DNA of 64,000 nucleotides from Zobellia nedashkovskayae (GTDB lineage: Bacteria > Bacteroidota > Bacteroidia > Flavobacteriales > Flavobacteriaceae): assembly GCF_015330125.1 (NCBI RefSeq), contig NZ_JADDXR010000002.1, positions 62,001 through 126,000 of the forward strand. Reading direction: 5' to 3'. A model generated the notes under the pieces. The model was not told the origin of the DNA and did not search any database. It worked only from the letters and a program-made list of their open reading frames with translations. Positions 41,254-50,085 of this stretch are shown one piece after another; the stretch's first letter is position 1, and every line of letters starts with the position of its first letter. The translations under genes were made by a program, and so were the position numbers.

Positions 41254-41495
41254 GCCCGATTGACGAGTAAAACGCTACTTAAATACAATTGTATCTACTA
41301 TTGCAGGGCTATGAATAAATTACCCCCAAGGTAAAATTGCTGCTAGTTAAGCAGTTATACACCTAGTTTGTTCAGAATTTAACTTCCAGAAACGCTTCCG
41401 CTTTAAAAATAAGGTGTGTTGTATTTTTGTGGAAGTGTCGCATTTAACACGCGGATTCACTTCTTTTTTTTTAATTGAATACCGAAAACGTTTAC

Positions 41496-42704
41496 ATGCG
41501 AAAGCCAAAAATACAGCTGAACAGGGTTAGCGATAAGACAAAGTTATTACTTAAGTTCAACTATATATCTTCTGTTCTTAGTCTAATCATAGGTCTAATA
41601 TGCTCATATGTCATTCATATGGACGGCACCATACCTTATGTTTTCTACTTCTACTTTGTTCTAAATCTATTGAACGTAGCTGCCTTTAATAAGCATAAGA
41701 ACCTTTTAGCAATGGCAATTTGCACTTCTACACTTTCGTTCTTAAGCACCATTGTAATTACCCTTTTTAGCGGAGGTATAAACAGTCCGTTTATTTTTAT
41801 TCTCGGCCTAATCGTACTAGCTGGTTACATATCTACCAGGGTTTTTGGTAAGGTTTACCTTTATCTTATCATTGGTACTATAATCTTAATATATCTTATT
41901 GATTATGCTAATTTTGACTTTATAGTAAATGAAGTTCCAGATAGTTCAAGAGATTTATTTAGCCTAATTAGTATATTGTTTTCAGTATATTTATTAGGCG
42001 GTGTATTAGGAAAAAACCTATTGAACACCCACCACAATCTATATAAGTCAAAAGCTAAGATTGAAAAAAGTGTAGACGAAAAAGAAAACCTTTTGCGAGA
42101 AGTACATCATAGGGTTAAAAACAATCTACAGACCGTCTCCAGTCTTTTAAACTTGCAGGCTAGAAATACACCTAACGAACAAATTAAAGAATTAGTAAAA
42201 AGTAGTCAAAATAGGGTAACAGCAATGGCTATGATTCACGAGATGCTCTATGTTCGTGATAACCTCTCTAAAATTGAATTTGGGTCTTACGTCCAAGAAC
42301 TTACACAATTTCTTCTAAGAACGGTAGAACGTAAAGACAGGAAGATAGATGTTACTATAGATATTCCTGATACTTGGTTGGGCATAGATACTGCCATCCC
42401 TCTGGGTTTATTAATCAATGAAACAGTAACCAATTCTATAAAGTATGGCTTTAAAGATATGGAAGTTGGTAAAATTACGATTGAGCTTGAAAAAAGATAT
42501 CAAAACAAATTTATTCTTAAAATTAGTGATAACGGAACCAGTTTCCCTTTAGATTTTGACTTTAAAAACTCTAACACACTGGGGTTAAGACTAATTCATA
42601 ATCTTGCAAGACAACTACAAGGTACAATAGAACGCCTCCCTACTACTGAAGGCACAACCTATAAACTAGTATTTCAAGATATTGCAAGCCAATTTAATAC
42701 GTAA
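41496..42704 (+). CDS. Six-TM sensor histidine kinase, HisKA_2 family (paralogue 1)
   Basis: The protein is 402 residues from the ATG at 41496; an in-frame TTG at 41475 would add seven. Residues 20-180 form six membrane helices with short loops and no extracellular domain. Between helices 3 and 4 is GGINSPF (93-99), close to the GGxxNPF quinone motif of RegB/PrrB kinases. The HisKA_2 box EVHHRVKNNLQ follows, with His205 as phospho-acceptor, then an HATPase domain with GLLINETVTNSIKYGF and GLRLIHNLARQLQG. No response regulator is adjacent. It is the first of three close paralogues within 5.5 kb. Confidence 0.87.
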   Translation: MRKPKIQLNRVSDKTKLLLKFNYISSVLSLIIGLICSYVIHMDGTIPYVFYFYFVLNLLNVAAFNKHKNLLAMAICTSTLSFLSTIVITLFSGGINSPFIFILGLIVLAGYISTRVFGKVYLYLIIGTIILIYLIDYANFDFIVNEVPDSSRDLFSLISILFSVYLLGGVLGKNLLNTHHNLYKSKAKIEKSVDEKENLLREVHHRVKNNLQTVSSLLNLQARNTPNEQIKELVKSSQNRVTAMAMIHEMLYVRDNLSKIEFGSYVQELTQFLLRTVERKDRKIDVTIDIPDTWLGIDTAIPLGLLINETVTNSIKYGFKDMEVGKITIELEKRYQNKFILKISDNGTSFPLDFDFKNSNTLGLRLIHNLARQLQGTIERLPTTEGTTYKLVFQDIASQFNT

Positions 42705-42945
42705 GTATTATATTAGCTAACACTGTTCTTATCTAGAATTATTTTTCCTAATTAAAAATTAGATTTTTCTGTCAAAAAATGACAGACAATTCGGAATAAA
42801 ATTGTAGATTTCTGGCAGAAGCCCCAGCTTATCATTTTTTAAACTATCCCCATCTTAGTATAATTTCATGGCTAAAGTTGCCAGAGTTGTACTACTTTGT
42901 TATTTGGGGCATAACTTTTCAACTTCGGCTTCAATATAATTAGTA

Positions 42946-44160
42946 ATGCCTAATATGAATACCTTTCAAAGCAGATTAGACAGCCAAAGCAAGCTGTTAA
43001 TTAACTTTGCATACTCATCTTCTGCTCTCTCCTTTTTAGTAGGTATAGTTCTTTATATGTTGGGAATTGTGGGTTATCTGCCTGCTACGTTTCTCTTATA
43101 CGCTATTTTGAATCTCACCAACATGTTTCTGTATAAGAAATATGATAAATTACTGATTACATCTCTTATAGGCTCTGCTCTATCACTAATTGGAACAGTT
43201 GTAGTAACCCTCTTGAGCGGAGGTATAAACAGTTCGTTTATTTTTGTCTTTAGTATTATTATTTTAGGCGGATATATGACAGGCCACTTTTTTGGAAAAA
43301 TCTACCTAACGATAATCTTACTTGTTACCGTTGGTATATATGCCGCAAGTGAGTATGGCTCCATTCCTAATGAAATACCGGAAAACTCAAGAGATCTTTT
43401 CAGTTTTATAAGTATTATTTTTTGCTCGTATTTATTGTTCATTGTTTTTGGTAAACATCTTTTACTTACCCATGAAAGACTACAAACATCAAAATCAGAA
43501 ATAGAAGAAGGCATTGCTGAGAAAGAATTACTTCTTAGAACAGTTCATCATAGGGTAAAGAACAACCTACAGACCGTGTCCAGCCTATTAAGCTTACAAT
43601 CCAAAAACACTACTAATGTTAAAATAAAAGAACTGGCTATCAGTAGTCAACATAGAATAAATTCTATGGCCATGATTCATGAAATGCTTTACATGCAGGA
43701 TAATATCTCGCAGATAGCTTTTAAACCCTACCTAAAAGAACTTACTGATTTCTTGGTGAAATCTGCCAATAGCAAAAACCTAGATGTTACCGTAAACATA
43801 GATATGCCAGATGTTAACCTAGGTTTGGACACAACAATTCCTTTGGGATTGTTAATTAATGAAGCCGTTACAAATTCTTTAAAATATGGGTTTCCAGAAA
43901 ATACTACTGGTAGAATAGACATACTTCTAAAAGAAAATACAGAAGAATCTCAAAGTTATTTTCTTGATATTACTGATGATGGAGTAGGTTTTTCTGAGGA
44001 GATAAACCATAAAACCACTAAATCTCTAGGACTTAAACTCATGCATAATCTAGGGCGCCAATTAAGAGGTTCTGTATCACGGATTAAAACAGAAAAAGGA
44101 ACGGGTTATCATATTATTTTCAAAGATAAAGAGCGACATCTACCAGGAATTAATGGGTAA
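42946..44160 (+). CDS. Six-TM sensor histidine kinase, HisKA_2 family (paralogue 2)
   Basis: This 404-residue protein has the same architecture as its neighbours. The loop motif is GGINSSF, so the proline kept in paralogues 1 and 3 is replaced. The phosphorylation box reads TVHHRVKNNLQTVSSLLSLQ and the ATPase domain contains GLLINEAVTNSLKYGF and GLKLMHNLGRQLRG. It begins 241 bases after paralogue 1 and may have its own promoter. The Tat-exported oxidoreductase gene follows 71 bases later on the same strand. Ligand and output unknown. Confidence 0.87.
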   Translation: MPNMNTFQSRLDSQSKLLINFAYSSSALSFLVGIVLYMLGIVGYLPATFLLYAILNLTNMFLYKKYDKLLITSLIGSALSLIGTVVVTLLSGGINSSFIFVFSIIILGGYMTGHFFGKIYLTIILLVTVGIYAASEYGSIPNEIPENSRDLFSFISIIFCSYLLFIVFGKHLLLTHERLQTSKSEIEEGIAEKELLLRTVHHRVKNNLQTVSSLLSLQSKNTTNVKIKELAISSQHRINSMAMIHEMLYMQDNISQIAFKPYLKELTDFLVKSANSKNLDVTVNIDMPDVNLGLDTTIPLGLLINEAVTNSLKYGFPENTTGRIDILLKENTEESQSYFLDITDDGVGFSEEINHKTTKSLGLKLMHNLGRQLRGSVSRIKTEKGTGYHIIFKDKERHLPGING

Positions 44161-44231
44161 TTCATGATAAAAATACAGGCCTCTTTTATTGCTTAAAAAA
44201 CAATATCTTTAGAGAACACCAAAAATATAAT

Positions 44232-45623
44232 ATGAAAAATTCTCGACGAAAGTTCTTGTCTTCCATAAGTATGCTTGCCGCCAGTTCTGCTATGCCATTA
44301 CATGCTTTTGATTTTGGCTCATCAAAAAAACTGAAAGTAGCCCTTGTTGGAACGGGAATACGAGGGATCACATTTTGGGGTAAAAGATTAGTTGACGAGT
44401 ACTCAGATATTATTGAATTTGTGGGACTTTCCGATATAAATGCCAGTAGATTAGCTTATGGCAAAAAGTACATTGGTGCCGCCTGTCCTGTTTTTCTTGA
44501 CTTTGAGAAAATGGTGAAGGATACTGGCCCAAACCTTATTATTGTTACTACTAAGGATTCAACCCATCATGAATTTATAATAAAAGGTTTAAACATGGGT
44601 TGCGATGTACTAACGGAGAAGCCCCTTACCGTAGATGAAATAAAATGCCAGGCAATTTTGGATGCTGAGAAAAAATCCGAGAAAAACTTAATTGTAGGTT
44701 TCAATTATAGGTGGAGCCCTTACGCCACTAAGATTAAAGAACTCTTGATGGACAAAACTATTGGTGATTTGATATCGGTAGATTTCAGCTGGTACCTTAA
44801 CACTTACCACGGCGCTTCATATTTTAGAAGATGGCATGGCGAAATGGAAAGTAGTGGGTCTCTTTGGGTACACAAATCTACACATCATTTTGATTTACTT
44901 AATTGGTGGATAGATTCTGAACCAAGTGAAGTATTCGCTTATGGAGATTTGGAGTTCTACGGAAAAAATGGTCCTTTCAGAGGAGATAATTGCCGTACTT
45001 GTAAGCATAGTAAAGAATGTGATTTTTATTGGGATATAACCCAAAATGAATTTATGAAAGAACTTTATGTAGACCATGAACAAGAAGACGGTTACATAAG
45101 AGACAACTGCCTGTTCCGAAAAGACATAGATATATATGATAAAATGTCTGCACAGGTAAAATATGCCGATAACACCACTCTCAATTACTCCCTTACCACC
45201 TACTCCCCTTTTGAGGGCTGGAGAGTAGCTCTTAATGGTACAAAAGGGCGTATTGAAGCTTCTCAAGACATTCCTTACCATAATGACATTACTGTATCTG
45301 AAGCCGAAAAGCATACCAATGAAATGGATCAGACCAACAAGGAAGAACTATCCTATGAGCCCATCATTGTGCATAAACTCTGGAAGCAACATGAAACCAT
45401 ACAAGTACCTATGGAGAAAAAGGGCCATGGTGGTGGCGATAAACGTTTGCAAGACAAAATATTCAAGACCTCAGACATAGAAGACCCTTACGGCAGAACC
45501 GCGGGTATACGGGATGGTGCCATGTCAATTCTCATTGGTATTGGTGCAAGACGAAGTATTGAACAGAAAAAGCCCGTACAGATTTCAGAGCTGACCGATT
45601 TAAAACCTCAAAAAAAACGATAG
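44232..45623 (+). CDS. Gfo/Idh/MocA-family oxidoreductase with Tat-type signal
   Basis: This 463-residue protein starts MKNSRRKFLSSISMLAASSA, a twin-arginine signal. An NAD(P)-binding Rossmann fold follows (KVALVGTGIRGITFWGK, about 34-155) with the family lysine in TEKPLT (129-133), then the alpha/beta substrate domain. An unusual feature is a four-cysteine group in the second domain: Cys254, Cys257, Cys263 and Cys293, which could bind a metal. Exported relatives include glycosidases and sugar dehydrogenases; the substrate is not predictable. It lies among the kinase paralogues. Confidence 0.85.
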   Translation: MKNSRRKFLSSISMLAASSAMPLHAFDFGSSKKLKVALVGTGIRGITFWGKRLVDEYSDIIEFVGLSDINASRLAYGKKYIGAACPVFLDFEKMVKDTGPNLIIVTTKDSTHHEFIIKGLNMGCDVLTEKPLTVDEIKCQAILDAEKKSEKNLIVGFNYRWSPYATKIKELLMDKTIGDLISVDFSWYLNTYHGASYFRRWHGEMESSGSLWVHKSTHHFDLLNWWIDSEPSEVFAYGDLEFYGKNGPFRGDNCRTCKHSKECDFYWDITQNEFMKELYVDHEQEDGYIRDNCLFRKDIDIYDKMSAQVKYADNTTLNYSLTTYSPFEGWRVALNGTKGRIEASQDIPYHNDITVSEAEKHTNEMDQTNKEELSYEPIIVHKLWKQHETIQVPMEKKGHGGGDKRLQDKIFKTSDIEDPYGRTAGIRDGAMSILIGIGARRSIEQKKPVQISELTDLKPQKKR

Positions 45624-45754
45624 TGAAATTTAAATACTTAGTTTTAAAAGTAGTATTTTGCTTACTTTTTTGATTGTGCGATAAAACATATTTAGATTTC
45701 CCATTTTAGAGAAGTCCGACCTAAATATAAAAGAGAAAAAAAAATAACCCCTTA

Positions 45755-46969
45755 ATGCAGCAGAGTACCGATTTAGAAAAAAAACTGAAGAGCAAGGTTA
45801 GACTGGTTTTAAAAGTTAACTACTACTCATCTATTCTTTCTCTTATTTTTGGCGGACTATGTTTTTTTCTTTTAGACATTGTTGAAGTTATCCCCTATGT
45901 CTTCCTCTCTTTTGGTATCCTAAATATTATAAACGTTTTATTTTATAAATACCACAAAAGTCTCACGCTGACCTACAACATTGTTTCCATGATGACGTTG
46001 GCCGGAGCCAGTGTTGTAACCTTATATAGTGGCGGCATCAATAGCCCGTTTATTTTTGTGCTTGCTCTTATTGTAGTTGCCGGGTATGTTACTACAAGAG
46101 CCTATGGCGCACTTTATTTATATCTAAATCTGTTGATTATAGTACTGATATATTCACAGAGTGTGGCAGATTTTAGTTTTGTTGATGATGTTGTTCCAGA
46201 ATCTTCAAAAAATCTATTCGCTCTTCTAAGCGTCTTATTTTCTGTTTACCTGCTAGGAGGTGTTTTTGGTAAAAACTTACTTCACGCACATCACAACTTA
46301 TACAAAACCAAAAACGAACTTGAAGAAAAAATACGAGAAAAAGAAACCTTAATTAAAGAAGTACACCACAGAGTAAAAAACAATTTACAAACCGTTTCTA
46401 GTTTGTTAAGTCTGCAATCAAGAAGTATTGTGGACAAGGACGTCAAAAGTCTATTGAAAAGTAGTCAAAACCGAGTAATTACAATGGCTATAGTACATGA
46501 AATGCTCTATATGCGTGAAGACCTTTCTAAAATTGAATATAAATCTTACGTACAAGAGCTTGCAGAATATTTAGTGCGATCTATAAAAGGAACAAGTAGT
46601 AATATTACATTGAATATAGATATTCCTAATGTTAAATTGAATATTGACACCGCTATACCTCTTGGCCTATTAATAAACGAAACCGTCACCAATGCTCTAA
46701 AATATGGCATTGTAGATGAAAATAAAGGAGAGATACATATTAAGCTTCGAAAAACCGACGATAATGAGTTTGTTCTTAATATGGGTGATAACGGTCAAGG
46801 ATTTCCCAAAGATGTAACTCATAAAAATTCAAAATCACTAGGCCTGAAATTGATACATAACCTGTCAAGACAGTTACAAGGTTCCATTATACGGGACCTT
46901 ACTCAAAAAGGAACCCATTATACCATAAAGTTTAAGGAAATAAGAGATCAAATAACTAGTGTGGCATAA
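45755..46969 (+). CDS. Six-TM sensor histidine kinase, HisKA_2 family (paralogue 3)
   Basis: This 404-residue protein is very similar to the kinases at 41496 and 42946, closest by eye to the first (EVHHRVKNNLQTVSSLLSLQ, GLLINETVTNALKYGI, GLKLIHNLSRQLQG). Six membrane helices, GGINSPF between helices 3 and 4, then HisKA_2 and HATPase domains. No partner regulator is encoded nearby. It is the last rightward gene before the leftward small secreted-protein genes. Confidence 0.87.
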   Translation: MQQSTDLEKKLKSKVRLVLKVNYYSSILSLIFGGLCFFLLDIVEVIPYVFLSFGILNIINVLFYKYHKSLTLTYNIVSMMTLAGASVVTLYSGGINSPFIFVLALIVVAGYVTTRAYGALYLYLNLLIIVLIYSQSVADFSFVDDVVPESSKNLFALLSVLFSVYLLGGVFGKNLLHAHHNLYKTKNELEEKIREKETLIKEVHHRVKNNLQTVSSLLSLQSRSIVDKDVKSLLKSSQNRVITMAIVHEMLYMREDLSKIEYKSYVQELAEYLVRSIKGTSSNITLNIDIPNVKLNIDTAIPLGLLINETVTNALKYGIVDENKGEIHIKLRKTDDNEFVLNMGDNGQGFPKDVTHKNSKSLGLKLIHNLSRQLQGSIIRDLTQKGTHYTIKFKEIRDQITSVA

Positions 46970-46989: not shown

Positions 46990-47100
46990 TTATTTTTTTA
47001 AAGGCAGCTTCAAAGAACGTAATACTCCTTTTGTCTTGGGAAATAATAGAATATGACTCAAAATTAAAGCTAGAGCCGTTACGAGAATAAATACAATCAT
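46990..47100 (-). CDS. Possible 36-residue membrane peptide
   Basis: A short frame from ATG at 47100: a hydrophobic N-terminal helix MIVFILVTALALILSHILLF followed by a basic tail PKTKGVLRSLKLPLKK. It has a good promoter on its strand, TTG-N18-TAACTTTG (47113-47141), 13 bases before the ATG. The composition (one helix, then Lys/Arg) is that of a membrane peptide. It lies just after the diverged small secreted-protein gene. Chance cannot be ruled out for a frame this short. Confidence 0.4.
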   Translation of the reverse strand: MIVFILVTALALILSHILLFPKTKGVLRSLKLPLKK

Positions 47101-47112
47101 AATAATTATTTT

Positions 47113-47141
47113 CAAAGTTATACAAAACGTGGTTTATCCAA
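47113..47141 (-). promoter_or_regulatory. Promoter (TTG-N18-TAACTTTG), leftward
   Basis: Both elements match the Bacteroidetes consensus. The box overlaps the stop codon and last codons of the gene at 47118-47372, so it would drive only what lies to the left: the 36-residue frame at 46990-47100. Confidence 0.5.
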
Positions 47142-47372
47142 TTTGGCAACAAAAGCCAAAGCCTTCTTTACTCTATATTCTTTCAACTTATATAATCGTG
47201 CTAAGCTGCTTTTGGCACTAATTTCAACTTTCTCAGTAGTCTCAACATCACTAGAGCAAAAAGCCAGAACAGAACCCATTTCAAAAACGTGATTTTTAAC
47301 ATTAACTATTGTATTAGGGGGAGCAGTGACTCCGAAGTTTAAAACAAATAGCAAGATTAAAATAGATTTCAT
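47118..47372 (-). CDS. Small secreted protein, diverged member of the ARLYK family (84 residues)
   Basis: An N-terminal signal peptide (MKSILILLFVLNFGVTA) is followed by a short variable region with two cysteine-flanked acidic stretches. The C-terminus SLARLYKLKEYRVKKALAFV (then AKLDKPRFV) aligns with the end of the three 79-residue proteins to the right (EVARLYKRDNARVTKALSFT). The shared pattern is ARLYK-x4-RV-x-KAL-x-F. Unlike those copies it lacks the conserved RNA-like leader. Function unknown. Confidence 0.7.
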   Translation of the reverse strand: MKSILILLFVLNFGVTAPPNTIVNVKNHVFEMGSVLAFCSSDVETTEKVEISAKSSLARLYKLKEYRVKKALAFVAKLDKPRFV

Positions 47373-47734
47373 AATTAAAGATTTGGGCTCTATAAAGATA
47401 ATCTTAAAATGGCATATACCTTACCATAAATCGCTGAACAGCAGTAATACTAGACATTTGAAATAACTTCTGACAAACTGTTTGTTATCTTCGATAAATG
47501 AAATAAACAAGCCAAACTTTATTCCGAGTTTAAATAGTTTTTGAGTTTACCCATACAAGGATTTGCCTTAATAAATAGCGACAGAAAAAAGAGAAGGATA
47601 TAAAAAAACTATAATTTAAAGAATGTATGAAATAGATTGAATAGTTTAAAGTGTGACATTCATTCTGTTAGAACATCTATAAAAAAAATTATGCTTAGTG
47701 AAGTAAATAACTTAAAGGGAAAAGCTAATTGTTA
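47373..47734. other. Gene-free spacer between two small secreted-protein genes
   Basis: About 360 AT-rich bases. I see no gene, terminator or repeat that I can support on either strand, nor the leader found before the three 79-residue genes. Confidence 0.5.
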
Positions 47735-47974
47735 TTAAGCCATTTTAGCTTTGTTTCTTTTTGTTGTAAAAGAAAGTGCCTTAGTTACTCTAGCATTATC
47801 TCTCTTGTATAAACGAGCTACTTCCAAAGTGCTTTCCAAACTAACTTCTTCGGTAGATGTTTCAGTAACGATAGTCATTTCAATAGTATTAACCTTAACC
47901 TCTTCAGTTGCTGTTTGAGCTTGAGCAGTTACTCCGATAAAAAGAACAAAAATTAAAGTTGCGATAGTTTTCAT
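47735..47974 (-). CDS. Small secreted protein, ARLYK family, copy 1 (79 residues)
   Basis: A signal peptide MKTIATLIFVLFIGVTAQA precedes a mature chain of about 60 residues. Its first half is acidic (ATEEVKVNTIEMTIV, TSTEEVSLEST). The second half is basic, with ARLYKRDNARVTKALSFTTK and then RNKAKMA. No cysteine and no known domain. It differs from copies 2 and 3 at only one residue each. It is preceded by the 106-base conserved leader and by a possible promoter at 48084-48115. Function unknown; secreted or periplasmic location is predicted from the signal peptide. Confidence 0.85.
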   Translation of the reverse strand: MKTIATLIFVLFIGVTAQAQTATEEVKVNTIEMTIVTETSTEEVSLESTLEVARLYKRDNARVTKALSFTTKRNKAKMA

Positions 47975-48080
47975 GACTTGGGCGTTTATATATATAAAAC
48001 GCCGCAGACCCCATTACACCGAGGTTCCGTTCGCTGAAAAACCCCTTATTTTCGGTTATCGGTACAACTTCGGTTCAAGT
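47975..48080 (-). promoter_or_regulatory. Structured leader RNA candidate, copy 1
   Basis: In the sense of the gene, the order is ACUUG (48080-48076), then stem UUGUACCGA (48067-48059) with UCGGUGUAA (48022-48014). A hairpin GGCGUUU...AAACGCC (48003-47981) follows, then CAAGU, which can pair with the first ACUUG, one base before the AUG. Two pairs of the 9-bp stem are G-U wobbles here where copy 3 has Watson-Crick pairs. Such a fold would close off the start region. Confidence 0.6.
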
Positions 48081-48083
48081 GTA

Positions 48084-48115
48084 AAAAACTATCGATGAAC
48101 GTGAACGACCTCAAA
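48084..48115 (-). promoter_or_regulatory. Putative promoter, small-protein copy 1 (TTTG-N20-TAGTTTTT)
   Basis: TTTG (48115-48112) and TAGTTTTT (48091-48084) resemble the Bacteroidetes promoter, with the last base of the -7 box off consensus. Transcription would begin close to the 5' strand of the leader's closing stem. Confidence 0.45.
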
Positions 48116-48379
48116 AACACCTTAACGGGATTAAGTGTTTTTAATCCGAAAAGAACCTATTTCCCATTACTACTAAAACTATAATACAATTAATGCTATA
48201 CCATCATTAAGTTATGATTGCTATCATTTACTACATTATTATAGTTGATTACCTGAAACCGATTAGGCTTTTCAGGTTTATAGAAAGGTAGTTCTTAGAA
48301 GTAAAAACTAGTTTCGTTTATTATGGAATCTTGGTTGTTGAAGAATGTTTGTTAAGAGTGATTGGTGAAGAACAATTAA

Positions 48380-48619
48380 TTAAGCCATTTTAGCTTTGTT
48401 TCTTTTTGTTGTAAAAGAAAGTGCCTTAGTTACTCTAGCATTATCTCTCTTGTATAAACGAGCAACTTCCAAAGTGCTTTCTAAACTAACTTCTTCAGTA
48501 GACGTTTCACTAACGATAGTCATTTCAATAGTGTTAACCTTAACCTCTTCAGTTGCTGTTTGAGCTTGAGCAGTTACTCCGATAAAAAGAACAAAAATTA
48601 AAGTTGCGATAGTTTTCAT
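48380..48619 (-). CDS. Small secreted protein, ARLYK family, copy 2 (79 residues)
   Basis: Same protein as copy 1 except Ser for Thr in IVSETSTEEV. Signal peptide, acidic first half, and basic ARLYKRDNARVTKALSF C-terminal half are unchanged. Differences from copy 1 in the DNA are few and mostly silent, so the reading frame appears to be under selection or homogenised by gene conversion. It has its own leader and promoter. Confidence 0.85.
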   Translation of the reverse strand: MKTIATLIFVLFIGVTAQAQTATEEVKVNTIEMTIVSETSTEEVSLESTLEVARLYKRDNARVTKALSFTTKRNKAKMA

Positions 48620-48727
48620 GACTTGGGCGTTTATATATATATAAAACGCCGCAGACCCTATTATACCGAGGTTCCGTTCGCTGAAAAACCCCTTATTTTC
48701 GGTTATCGGTACAACTTCGGTTCAAGT
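48620..48727 (-). promoter_or_regulatory. Structured leader RNA candidate, copy 2
   Basis: Same layout as copy 1: ACUUG (48727-48723), 9-bp stem 48714-48706 with 48669-48661, hairpin 48650-48626, CAAGU before the AUG. The stem's 3' strand reads UCGGUAUAA, giving one G-U wobble. The hairpin loop has one more UA, which keeps the stem. Confidence 0.6.
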
Positions 48728-48730
48728 GTA

Positions 48731-48762
48731 AAAAACTATCGGTGAACGTGAACGACCTCAAA
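48731..48762 (-). promoter_or_regulatory. Putative promoter, small-protein copy 2
   Basis: TTTG and TAGTTTTT with 20-base spacing, identical to copy 1 in both boxes. Confidence 0.45.
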
Positions 48763-48796
48763 AACACCTTAACGGGATTAAGTGTTTTTAATCCGG

Positions 48797-49270
48797 AAAC
48801 AACCTGTTTCATATTACTACGAAAAACTAGAATACAGCTAATGCAATACTATATTCAGTTGTAATTACTATAACTTGCCAAATTCTGATTAGCAATTATC
48901 TGAAACCCATCCAGAAATATGACCGTAGAGAAAAAGAAAAAGCTGTTTATCTATCAAAGGTCAACTCCGTACACATTACAGTTCTTCCTTTAATAGTATT
49001 AAAGGAACTAGTTACTCGTACAGTAGTTCCCTTTTCTAGGATATAAGAGTACTACGCTCCGTTGGTTGTAATAATGATTTTTGTAAAAGATGAAACTAAA
49101 CCTAAAGTTTATTTTCACAATTGTGCATACCGATTTATTGGTGGCTTTTGCCTAGAATAAGAATCAACACAATTACAGTGTAATATACCTCTTGGATTTT
49201 AGAAAGTCAGTTTCTGAAATATAGAATTAGTTTAGTGCTCTGCGGTAGAGTGGTCGTTGAAGAACAAATG
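48797..49270. other. Spacer between repeat units 2 and 3
   Basis: About 470 bases without a gene I can support. Both ends resemble the ends of the shorter spacer (48151-48378), for example ATTACTAC near the right end of each unit's flank and GAAGAACAA near the left. About 250 extra bases lie in the middle. That part includes a perfect 11-bp palindrome, TTCCTTTAATA-G-TATTAAAGGAA, at 48985-49007. Confidence 0.5.
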
Positions 49271-49271
49271 A

Positions 49272-49511
49272 TTAAGCCATTTTAGCTTTGTTTCTTTTTG
49301 TTGTAAAAGAAAGTGCCTTAGTTACTCTAGCATTATCTCTCTTGTATAAACGAGCAACTTCCAAAGTGCTTTCAAAACTAACTTCTTCAGTAGACGTTTC
49401 AGTAACGATAGTCATTTCAATAGTATTAACCTTCACCTCTTCAGTTGCTGTTTGAGCTTGAGCAGTTACTCCGATAAAAAGAACAAAAATTAAAGTTGCG
49501 ATAGTTTTCAT
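49272..49511 (-). CDS. Small secreted protein, ARLYK family, copy 3 (79 residues)
   Basis: Same protein as copy 1 except Phe for Leu in EEVSFESTLEV. It is the first of the three in the direction of transcription. Signal peptide and C-terminal ARLYKRDNARVTKALSF are unchanged. Its leader carries the fully Watson-Crick form of the 9-bp stem. Confidence 0.85.
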   Translation of the reverse strand: MKTIATLIFVLFIGVTAQAQTATEEVKVNTIEMTIVTETSTEEVSFESTLEVARLYKRDNARVTKALSFTTKRNKAKMA

Positions 49512-49617
49512 GACTTGGGCGTTTATATATATAAAACGCCGCAGACCCCATTGTACCGAGGTTCCGTTCGCTGAAAAACCCCTTATTTTCGGTTATCGGT
49601 ACAACTTCGGTTCAAGT
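49512..49617 (-). promoter_or_regulatory. Structured leader RNA candidate, copy 3
   Basis: ACUUG (49617-49613), 9-bp stem UUGUACCGA (49604-49596) with UCGGUACAA (49559-49551), hairpin 49540-49518, CAAGU before the AUG. All nine pairs of the stem are Watson-Crick. Confidence 0.6.
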
Positions 49618-49620
49618 GTA

Positions 49621-49652
49621 AAAAACCATCGGTGAACGTGAACGACCTCAAA
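49621..49652 (-). promoter_or_regulatory. Putative promoter, small-protein copy 3 (weaker)
   Basis: The same TTTG-N20 arrangement, but the -7 box reads TGGTTTTT, losing the conserved A. This copy may be less active, or the true promoter lies elsewhere. Confidence 0.35.
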
Positions 49653-49686
49653 ACACCTTAACGGGATTAAGTGTTTTTAATCCGAA

Positions 49687-50085
49687 ATTAATGACTTTAC
49701 CGTATTGAAGAATTGTCTTTTTGTAATACTATAGCTTTGATAAAAATTTTAGTAGTTGATAATATATAGTAGCTATGCTTTCTCAAACTAGTAAAACATA
49801 GGTTTTACATAGAAGTTATTCCTTAAGAGTCAATAACCCTGAGATTTACAAAAATATCTATACATAAGCAAAGACTCCTTAACTCGTTTATTATAGGTAT
49901 CCTACAATAAAAAACCATGATTTTCAGTCTATGTACTATTCCGCTTACATCAAAAATTGATGTACCAACGATCAAGAGCATACTTTTGACGATTATTAGT
50001 TAATATTATTGGAGTGAAACATCTAAATATATAATTTGCACCTTCTTTTGAAAAAGAAAATAGATAAATTTAAAATCCCTAAATT
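49687..50085. other. Intergenic region before the malectin lipoprotein gene
   Basis: About 400 AT-rich bases without a gene I can support. Its right end holds the rightward promoter at 50009-50038. Confidence 0.5.
50009..50038 (+). promoter_or_regulatory. Promoter of the malectin lipoprotein gene
   Basis: TTG at 50009-50011, 18 bases, then TATAATTTG (one base longer than TANNTTTG), 48 bases before the ATG at 50086. Confidence 0.45.

Follow-up and report, generated by a model that had tools for sequence, protein, structure and literature searches.

Hairpins in mRNA leaders that sequester the Shine-Dalgarno (SD) sequence, such as those of the ROSE-type thermometers, block the site at which the ribosome binds, and to our knowledge few translation-control RNA elements are known in the Bacteroidota. 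The curated RNA motifs of this phylum include Bacteroid-trp (RF01692), Bacteroidales-1 (RF01693), Flavo-1 (RF01705) and 6S-flavo (RF01685), as described in PMC2864571. Flavobacterial and other Bacteroidota mRNAs are reported to be without SD sequences, and in Flavobacterium johnsoniae structure close to the start codon is reported to contribute to tuning translation, and A residues at -3, -6, -12 and -13 to raise it (PMC6847099). Flavobacterial promoters, as characterised in PMC6847099 and PMC9723704, possess a TAnnTTTG box and usually give rise to short leaders.

The locus considered here lies in the window, by which we mean the whole 64,000-nt stretch of Zobellia nedashkovskayae DNA that was analysed. 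It comprises three 79-codon genes on the minus strand, each preceded by a near-identical leader whose letters and placement agree with those quoted in the initial annotation. The genes, a more distant relative, and the conserved modules upstream of the three copies are as follows.
47735..47974, minus strand: 79-codon gene, copy 1, with a signal peptide (recognised by eye), a variable middle and a conserved basic C-terminus
48380..48619, minus strand: 79-codon gene, copy 2
49272..49511, minus strand: 79-codon gene, copy 3
47118..47372, minus strand: divergent fourth paralog of 84 aa, without the conserved leader
47975..48148, minus strand: conserved upstream module of copy 1 (leader plus probable promoter/operator)
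48620..48795, minus strand: conserved upstream module of copy 2 (leader plus probable promoter/operator)
49512..49684, minus strand: conserved upstream module of copy 3 (leader plus probable promoter/operator)

Leader length is 106 nt in copies 1 and 3 and 108 nt in copy 2, and the three leaders differ at just three substituted sites and by one TA indel. The repeated block exceeds the leader, running from about -174 (positions being counted from the start codon) through the stop codon, with little similarity between the copies beyond these limits. A partial fifth match to the small gene exists elsewhere in the genome (C2:1812215-1812316), and a comparison of the small protein with Pfam and NCBIfam returned nothing above the family cut-offs. 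Across four Zobellia species, copies compared from -190 to +60 have within-species identities of 0.94-0.99 and a mean between-species identity of 0.845, pointing to concerted evolution or repeated duplication.

Matches to the small protein occur in 71 of 397 sampled Flavobacteriaceae genomes and in 42 of 237 genera, often as local repeats, and leader DNA was matched upstream of homologous genes in other genera, the longer matches being mostly 67-76% identical. Among the matches listed, 225 gene occurrences had sufficient upstream sequence, 154 of them with distinct leaders. From these we kept the 134 leaders agreeing with 75% or more of 90 conserved columns, which represent 59 genomes and 37 genera, all Flavobacteriaceae, and were likewise drawn from among the matches listed; 20 were dropped. 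The 90 selection columns include part of the hairpin described below, and a second selection was consequently made on 56 columns upstream of it, which kept 137 leaders and dropped 17. Non-redundant subsets consist of 90 leaders at 85% identity, 82 at 80% and 22 at 60%. In an order-wide search of 296 genomes, convincing members were confined to the Flavobacteriaceae, the four matches outside the family spanning only about the first 40-62 positions (E 1e-4 to 7e-4). These sequence comparisons support the view that a conserved leader with a structured start-codon element precedes this small-gene family in many genera of Flavobacteriaceae.

The structured element is a hairpin, hereafter P3, that had been noticed in the window as GGCGUUU/AAACGCC; it is indeed present in all copies, the sole change there being an extra UA in copy 2.
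47981..48003, minus strand: P3 of copy 1, GGCGUUU/AAACGCC
48626..48650, minus strand: P3 of copy 2, with a loop longer by UA
49518..49540, minus strand: P3 of copy 3

Folding of the 50 nt immediately upstream of the ATG gives a mean z-score, relative to shuffles, of -2.06 in the 90 non-redundant leaders and of -2.33 in the 134 members (60% below -2); for 282 control ORFs in the same stretches the mean is -0.16 (6% below -2). The letters and register of P3 vary widely among lineages, and the stems seen include CUUGCG/CGCAAG around GUUAU/AUAAC, CUGUAGA/UCUACAG and GGGG/CCCC besides the GGCGUUU/AAACGCC of the window. In an arm-swap test, the 5' arm of one leader was paired with the 3' arm of another and the duplex energies were compared. 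For the 82 leaders the mean P3 energy is -7.79 kcal/mol with own arms and -5.43 with swapped arms (z -10.2, 0 of 2000 shuffles), and covariation persists among the 22 leaders at 60% identity (z -4.5, 0 of 2000 shuffles) and with one leader per genus (mean z -6.2 over 20 draws, 0 of 6000). The result is unchanged for members chosen solely on columns upstream of P3 (z -10.5, 0 of 2000). In 34 of 37 genera a leader's own arms pair better than arms taken from other genera, the margin exceeding 1 kcal/mol in 26; in the remaining 3 genera they do not. When 1711 window pairs were scanned, the P3 windows took the top 17 ranks, with t reaching -7.6, as compared with a 5th to 95th percentile range of -1.64 to 1.75 for all pairs; no other window pair stands out that would indicate an alternative fold using the P3 arms. 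The swaps demonstrate that P3 exists and has been kept through compensating changes.

Stems with at least 8 P3 pairs across the loop are found in 68 of 82 leaders, 94 of 282 controls and 12 of 20 dropped members. A looser criterion of at least 5 pairs was rejected as evidence, given that it is reached not only by 75 of 82 leaders but also by 143 of the 282 controls and by 18 of the 20 dropped members, and the 36 of 37 genera with such a hairpin are counted by this same uninformative criterion. P3 accompanies the conserved module, since dropped members show neither its folding (mean z -0.05 in the 20 dropped, 1 of 20 below -2) nor, among the 17 dropped in the second selection, its covariation (z -0.5, 602 of 2000). 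Tree-shuffled column covariation on 134 leaders by 217 columns gave no significant pair (best E about 5), and RNAalifold on an 80-row alignment returned zero consensus pairs; the differing registers of P3 between lineages may be why column-based methods miss it. P3 is probably a real control element. The proposal of a control leader that came with the initial annotation survives in this hairpin, which covaries at the AUG, and is not supported for its other components, namely a 9-bp stem, a closing helix and strand-specific wobble, each of which is taken up below.

The explanation that we tentatively favour is that P3 is a leader hairpin that, in a tandem family of secreted peptides, pairs much of the region where ribosomes load and keeps initiation low until it is opened. 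Under this hypothesis the module would be the region through which a tandem Flavobacteriaceae family of small secreted proteins is regulated. Its outer part, from about -174 to -45 and conserved as sequence, would serve mostly as a DNA control signal or unstructured leader, and its inner part would be P3, the 3' arm of which ends near the AUG. In the mRNA, P3 would pair much of -15 to -3, which is needed for the SD-less loading of Bacteroidota ribosomes, as well as the A-rich bases at -13/-12 in many lineages, and translation of the peptide would stay low until some factor opened the hairpin. We infer that P3 acts in mRNA, because of its position beside the AUG and its independence from particular letters, and that it lowers initiation and is regulated. 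Of the 82 leaders, 68 have an A at -12 and 56 have one at -13. Pairing is predicted for A-12 in 40 of the 68 leaders that have it and for A-13 in 37 of the 56, so that this enhancer would be hidden in many but not all lineages. The AAGTC immediately 5' of the ATG is strongly conserved, each base being found in 63-69 of 82 leaders, and places a G at -3 (69 of 82), where A is favourable. Calculated without a shuffled control, the probability of being unpaired between 5 and 45 C rises from 0.31 to 0.36 at -15..-3 and from 0.27 to 0.52 at the AUG in the 82 leaders, and from 0.14 to 0.25 and from 0.28 to 0.71, respectively, in the window copies, again without a shuffled control. A thermometer is neither favoured nor disfavoured by these values, because the calculated opening is small at -15..-3 and larger at the AUG.

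Further upstream, conserved islands lie at approximately -174 to -136, -129 to -97 and -81 to -55. They fold little, 50-nt windows starting at -140 to -60 having mean z-scores of 0 to -0.44, with a modest -1.1 at -160. The conserved and mostly unstructured region from -174 to -45 is probably promoter/operator, and we take the islands to be promoter plus operator, or else leader bound by protein or RNA. Each of two island patterns, allowing at most 3 mismatches, matches only the three leaders in their own genome. In 40 genomes the first pattern had 13 further 3-mismatch matches and its reversed-pattern control 6; the second pattern provides a weak test, as it was one base out of phase for Zobellia and failed to hit five of the nine Zobellia genomes. 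CG steps are conserved at several places in the module (alignment columns 20, 40, 66, 73, 113 and 134), with spacings of about 20-21 bp in some cases, and could form an operator array on one face of the DNA. Three additional pairings were considered and rejected. A hairpin ACCGAAAA/TTTTTCAG, which is AACGAG/CTCGTT in another lineage, reached t -3.97 in the scan and is weak at fixed offsets (z -1.7, 92 of 2000). An upstream hairpin AAAACAC/GTGTTTT is similarly weak (z -1.7, 81 of 2000; window z -1.1 at -160). The window copies also show CGATAGUUUU/AAAACUAUCG pairing with codons 2-5, for which t-values lay between 0.8 and -1.6 in 12 window pairs.

A potential alternative is that P3 protects the mRNA 5' end or is a processing site, with no control of initiation, and that the upstream block is mostly promoter/operator DNA. 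The 5' UTRs reported for F. psychrophilum are short (median 24, mean 65 nt; PMC9723704), as are those of F. johnsoniae (mean 33 nt; PMC6847099), such that a start near -40 would be usual, and the windows from -140 to -60 barely fold, yet the islands are conserved at 1.07-1.09 bits. However, no conserved TAnnTTTG box was found at the distance required, loose matches (5 of 6) clustering at -120, -100 and -30, and the 3' arm of P3 extends near the AUG, which a mere protector would not need. We consider this explanation possible, if on the unlikely side.

It had been argued that the changes among the window copies preserve pairing, as G-U wobble, only in RNA read with the gene. No such strand-specific wobble is found in P3, where the appositions number 711 Watson-Crick, 23 G-T and 47 A-C, as compared with 634, 24 and 52 for swapped arms, counted from an alignment that scored G-T and A-C alike; the 23 G-T and 47 A-C thus equal the swapped-arm background. 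Energies give the same picture. The 50-nt window at P3 has -11.04 in sense and -10.90 in antisense, arm duplexes are slightly stronger in antisense for P3 (-8.27 versus -7.79), with -4.55 versus -4.42 for the 9-bp stem, and in no case, the closing pair included, are they weaker in antisense. Raw sense energies do exceed antisense energies in 50-nt windows at -180 to -150, -80 and -70 (t -4 to -6.6; -5.0 at -80 and -4.3 at -70). Once corrected by shuffling, the z-scores of sense and antisense are similar, those of the sense strand being alike or weaker, and we therefore attribute the raw excess to base composition. The selected property of P3 is Watson-Crick complementarity, for which the data favour neither strand, and given this lack of strand bias wobble is no proof of action in RNA.

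The same pattern bears on the notion that template switching between the arms during replication mainly keeps or renews the hairpin, which would then have little function. Template switching is reported to be able to create and maintain perfect stems (PMC8794818), and P3 is mostly Watson-Crick without a G-U preference. Nonetheless, in 34 of 37 genera the signal occupies a single site before the ATG, no other window pair is as strong, internal loops of the GTTAT/ATAAC type are retained in lineages, and stems of at least 8 pairs are more common in the leaders (68 of 82) than in control genes (94 of 282). We regard template switching as an improbable explanation for P3.

The 9-bp stem, to which the initial annotation gave most weight, fares differently.
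49551..49604, minus strand: 9-bp stem of copy 3, with its arms at 49596-49604 and 49551-49559; it exists in this sequence but is not conserved in relatives

One arm, UUGUACCGA, is identical in the three copies, and its partner is UCGGUACAA in copy 3, UCGGUAUAA in copy 2 and UCGGUGUAA in copy 1; the predicted lowest-energy fold uses the stem in copies 2 and 3, not in copy 1. Two of the three substituted leader sites sit in its 3' arm. A transition in a stem arm would keep the pair about half the time, and both changes would do so with a chance of about 1/4, for which reason the wobble argument is weak: two wobble changes among three recent copies are poor evidence. Of the 82 leaders, 7 form 8 or more of the 9 pairs and 14 form 7 or more, with 51 forming 5 or fewer, so that most homologous leaders break the stem without compensation. 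The mean of 4.90 own pairs compares with 4.78 with swapped partners (SD 0.11) and with 2.95-4.07 in twelve slid registers; the arms are somewhat complementary on average, yet the partners vary independently. Arm energies show no covariation in the 82 leaders (z -0.7, 466 of 2000 shuffles as good) or with one leader per genus (z -0.76). Sixteen of 134 leaders reach 8-9 pairs, 5 of them from Zobellia and 11 others with different letters, two of these having all 9. Pairs are lost even within the genus, other Zobellia genomes being already short of them (7/9 in G388, 6/9 in G001 and 8/9 in G236). The column stretches of the two arms rank lowest in conservation within the module, at 0.63 and 0.42 bits per column, compared with 0.82 for P3, 1.07 and 1.09 for the best islands and 0.21 for the flank. 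The stem is accordingly not conserved as structure, and swapping arms between relatives emerges as a quick test that separates covarying stems from others.

The proposed closing helix does no better. ACUUG and CAAGU are located at opposite leader ends in the three copies, as had been described, and their pairing shows no covariation (z -0.6, 521 of 2000, in 82 leaders; 0.03 with one leader per genus), in a test of limited power given that both sides are nearly invariant. We consequently find it very unlikely that the 9-bp stem and P3, closed by ACUUG/CAAGU, constitute one folded control leader. All the pieces are present in the three copies, the 9-bp register exceeds the slid ones and 16 of 134 leaders approach a full stem, but own pairs equal swapped pairs, 51 of 82 leaders have no more than 5 of 9, pairs are lost within a genus, and the closing pair stays at z -0.6.

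On one side of the small genes in the window are secA and three HisKA_2 sensor kinases, and on the other a malectin-domain gene, a peptide methionine sulfoxide reductase gene and an ECF sigma gene.
41475-46969: three related HisKA_2 kinases of 409, 404 and 404 aa, beside the small genes

Genes related to these kinases occur close to the small genes in all 3 stretches examined from the same genus and in 11 of the 20 (up to 19 kb) from other genera; the corresponding counts for the reductase are 3 of 3 and 15 of 20. A peptide-receptor link between the small proteins and the HisKA_2 kinases is conceivable. Between or beside small-gene copies in other genera we also observed a MacB/FtsX-type exporter (L129, L138, L145 and L147), an ABC ATPase, a GDSL lipase and an M23 peptidase (L129), a DEAD-box helicase (L137) and a TetR regulator (L078). 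The least probable explanation is that P3 functions in DNA, as a hairpin or a recombination signal through which modules recombine and capture variable cargo between copies: other genes do lie between copies in several genera, copies are more alike within the four species than between them, and P3 is without strand bias, but it is bound to the start codon of one gene family, and its GTT...AAC order is opposite to the AAC...GTT order of integron attC sites.

Returning to the tentatively favoured reading, in which P3 holds initiation low until it is opened, a more ambitious form may be proposed: the module would be a family-wide cis-acting switch for SD-less translation, in which a letter-variable hairpin masks the start flank (often with A-12/A-13) and the islands bind the opening factor, possibly one linked to HisKA_2. 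This form we consider speculative and unlikely. A start-codon hairpin with compensating changes, supported in 34 of 37 genera, nevertheless offers a simple system for asking how SD-less initiation is gated.

A leader hairpin at the start codon is a known kind of element, and the present hairpin family appears to be new. The leader falls outside the catalogued RNA families, as was suggested initially, in the stretches searched: window positions 47000-50000 gave no Rfam family at E 1 or better, and ten homologous loci gave none at the gathering score. Two matches in these loci lie far below it, one to psRNA2 (E 0.0026) away from the leaders and the other to a microRNA model (E 0.69) on the opposite strand of the leader at locus L106. 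Among the matches listed from a mostly non-subscription literature, no work names the leader or the gene family. Like the curated Bacteroidota RNA motifs described in PMC2864571, this is a structured element found by comparison within the same phylum; unlike them, its leader stretches are without a gathering-score match in Rfam. The resemblance to the SD-independent signals reported for F. johnsoniae (PMC6847099) consists in the common A at -12/-13 and in the role ascribed there to start-region structure in tuning translation, whereas the leaders differ from those signals in having G rather than A at -3 (69 of 82) and a region more paired than that before control genes. Finally, the P3 stem is akin to SD-sequestering leaders in that it adjoins the start codon and would hide bases used by the ribosome. 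In contrast to them, it would hide the start-codon flank, often with its A-rich stretch, in a phylum whose mRNAs are reported to be without SD sequences (PMC6847099), and in contrast to ROSE-type thermometers it is calculated to open only slightly at -15..-3 from 5 to 45 C (probability of being unpaired 0.31 to 0.36).
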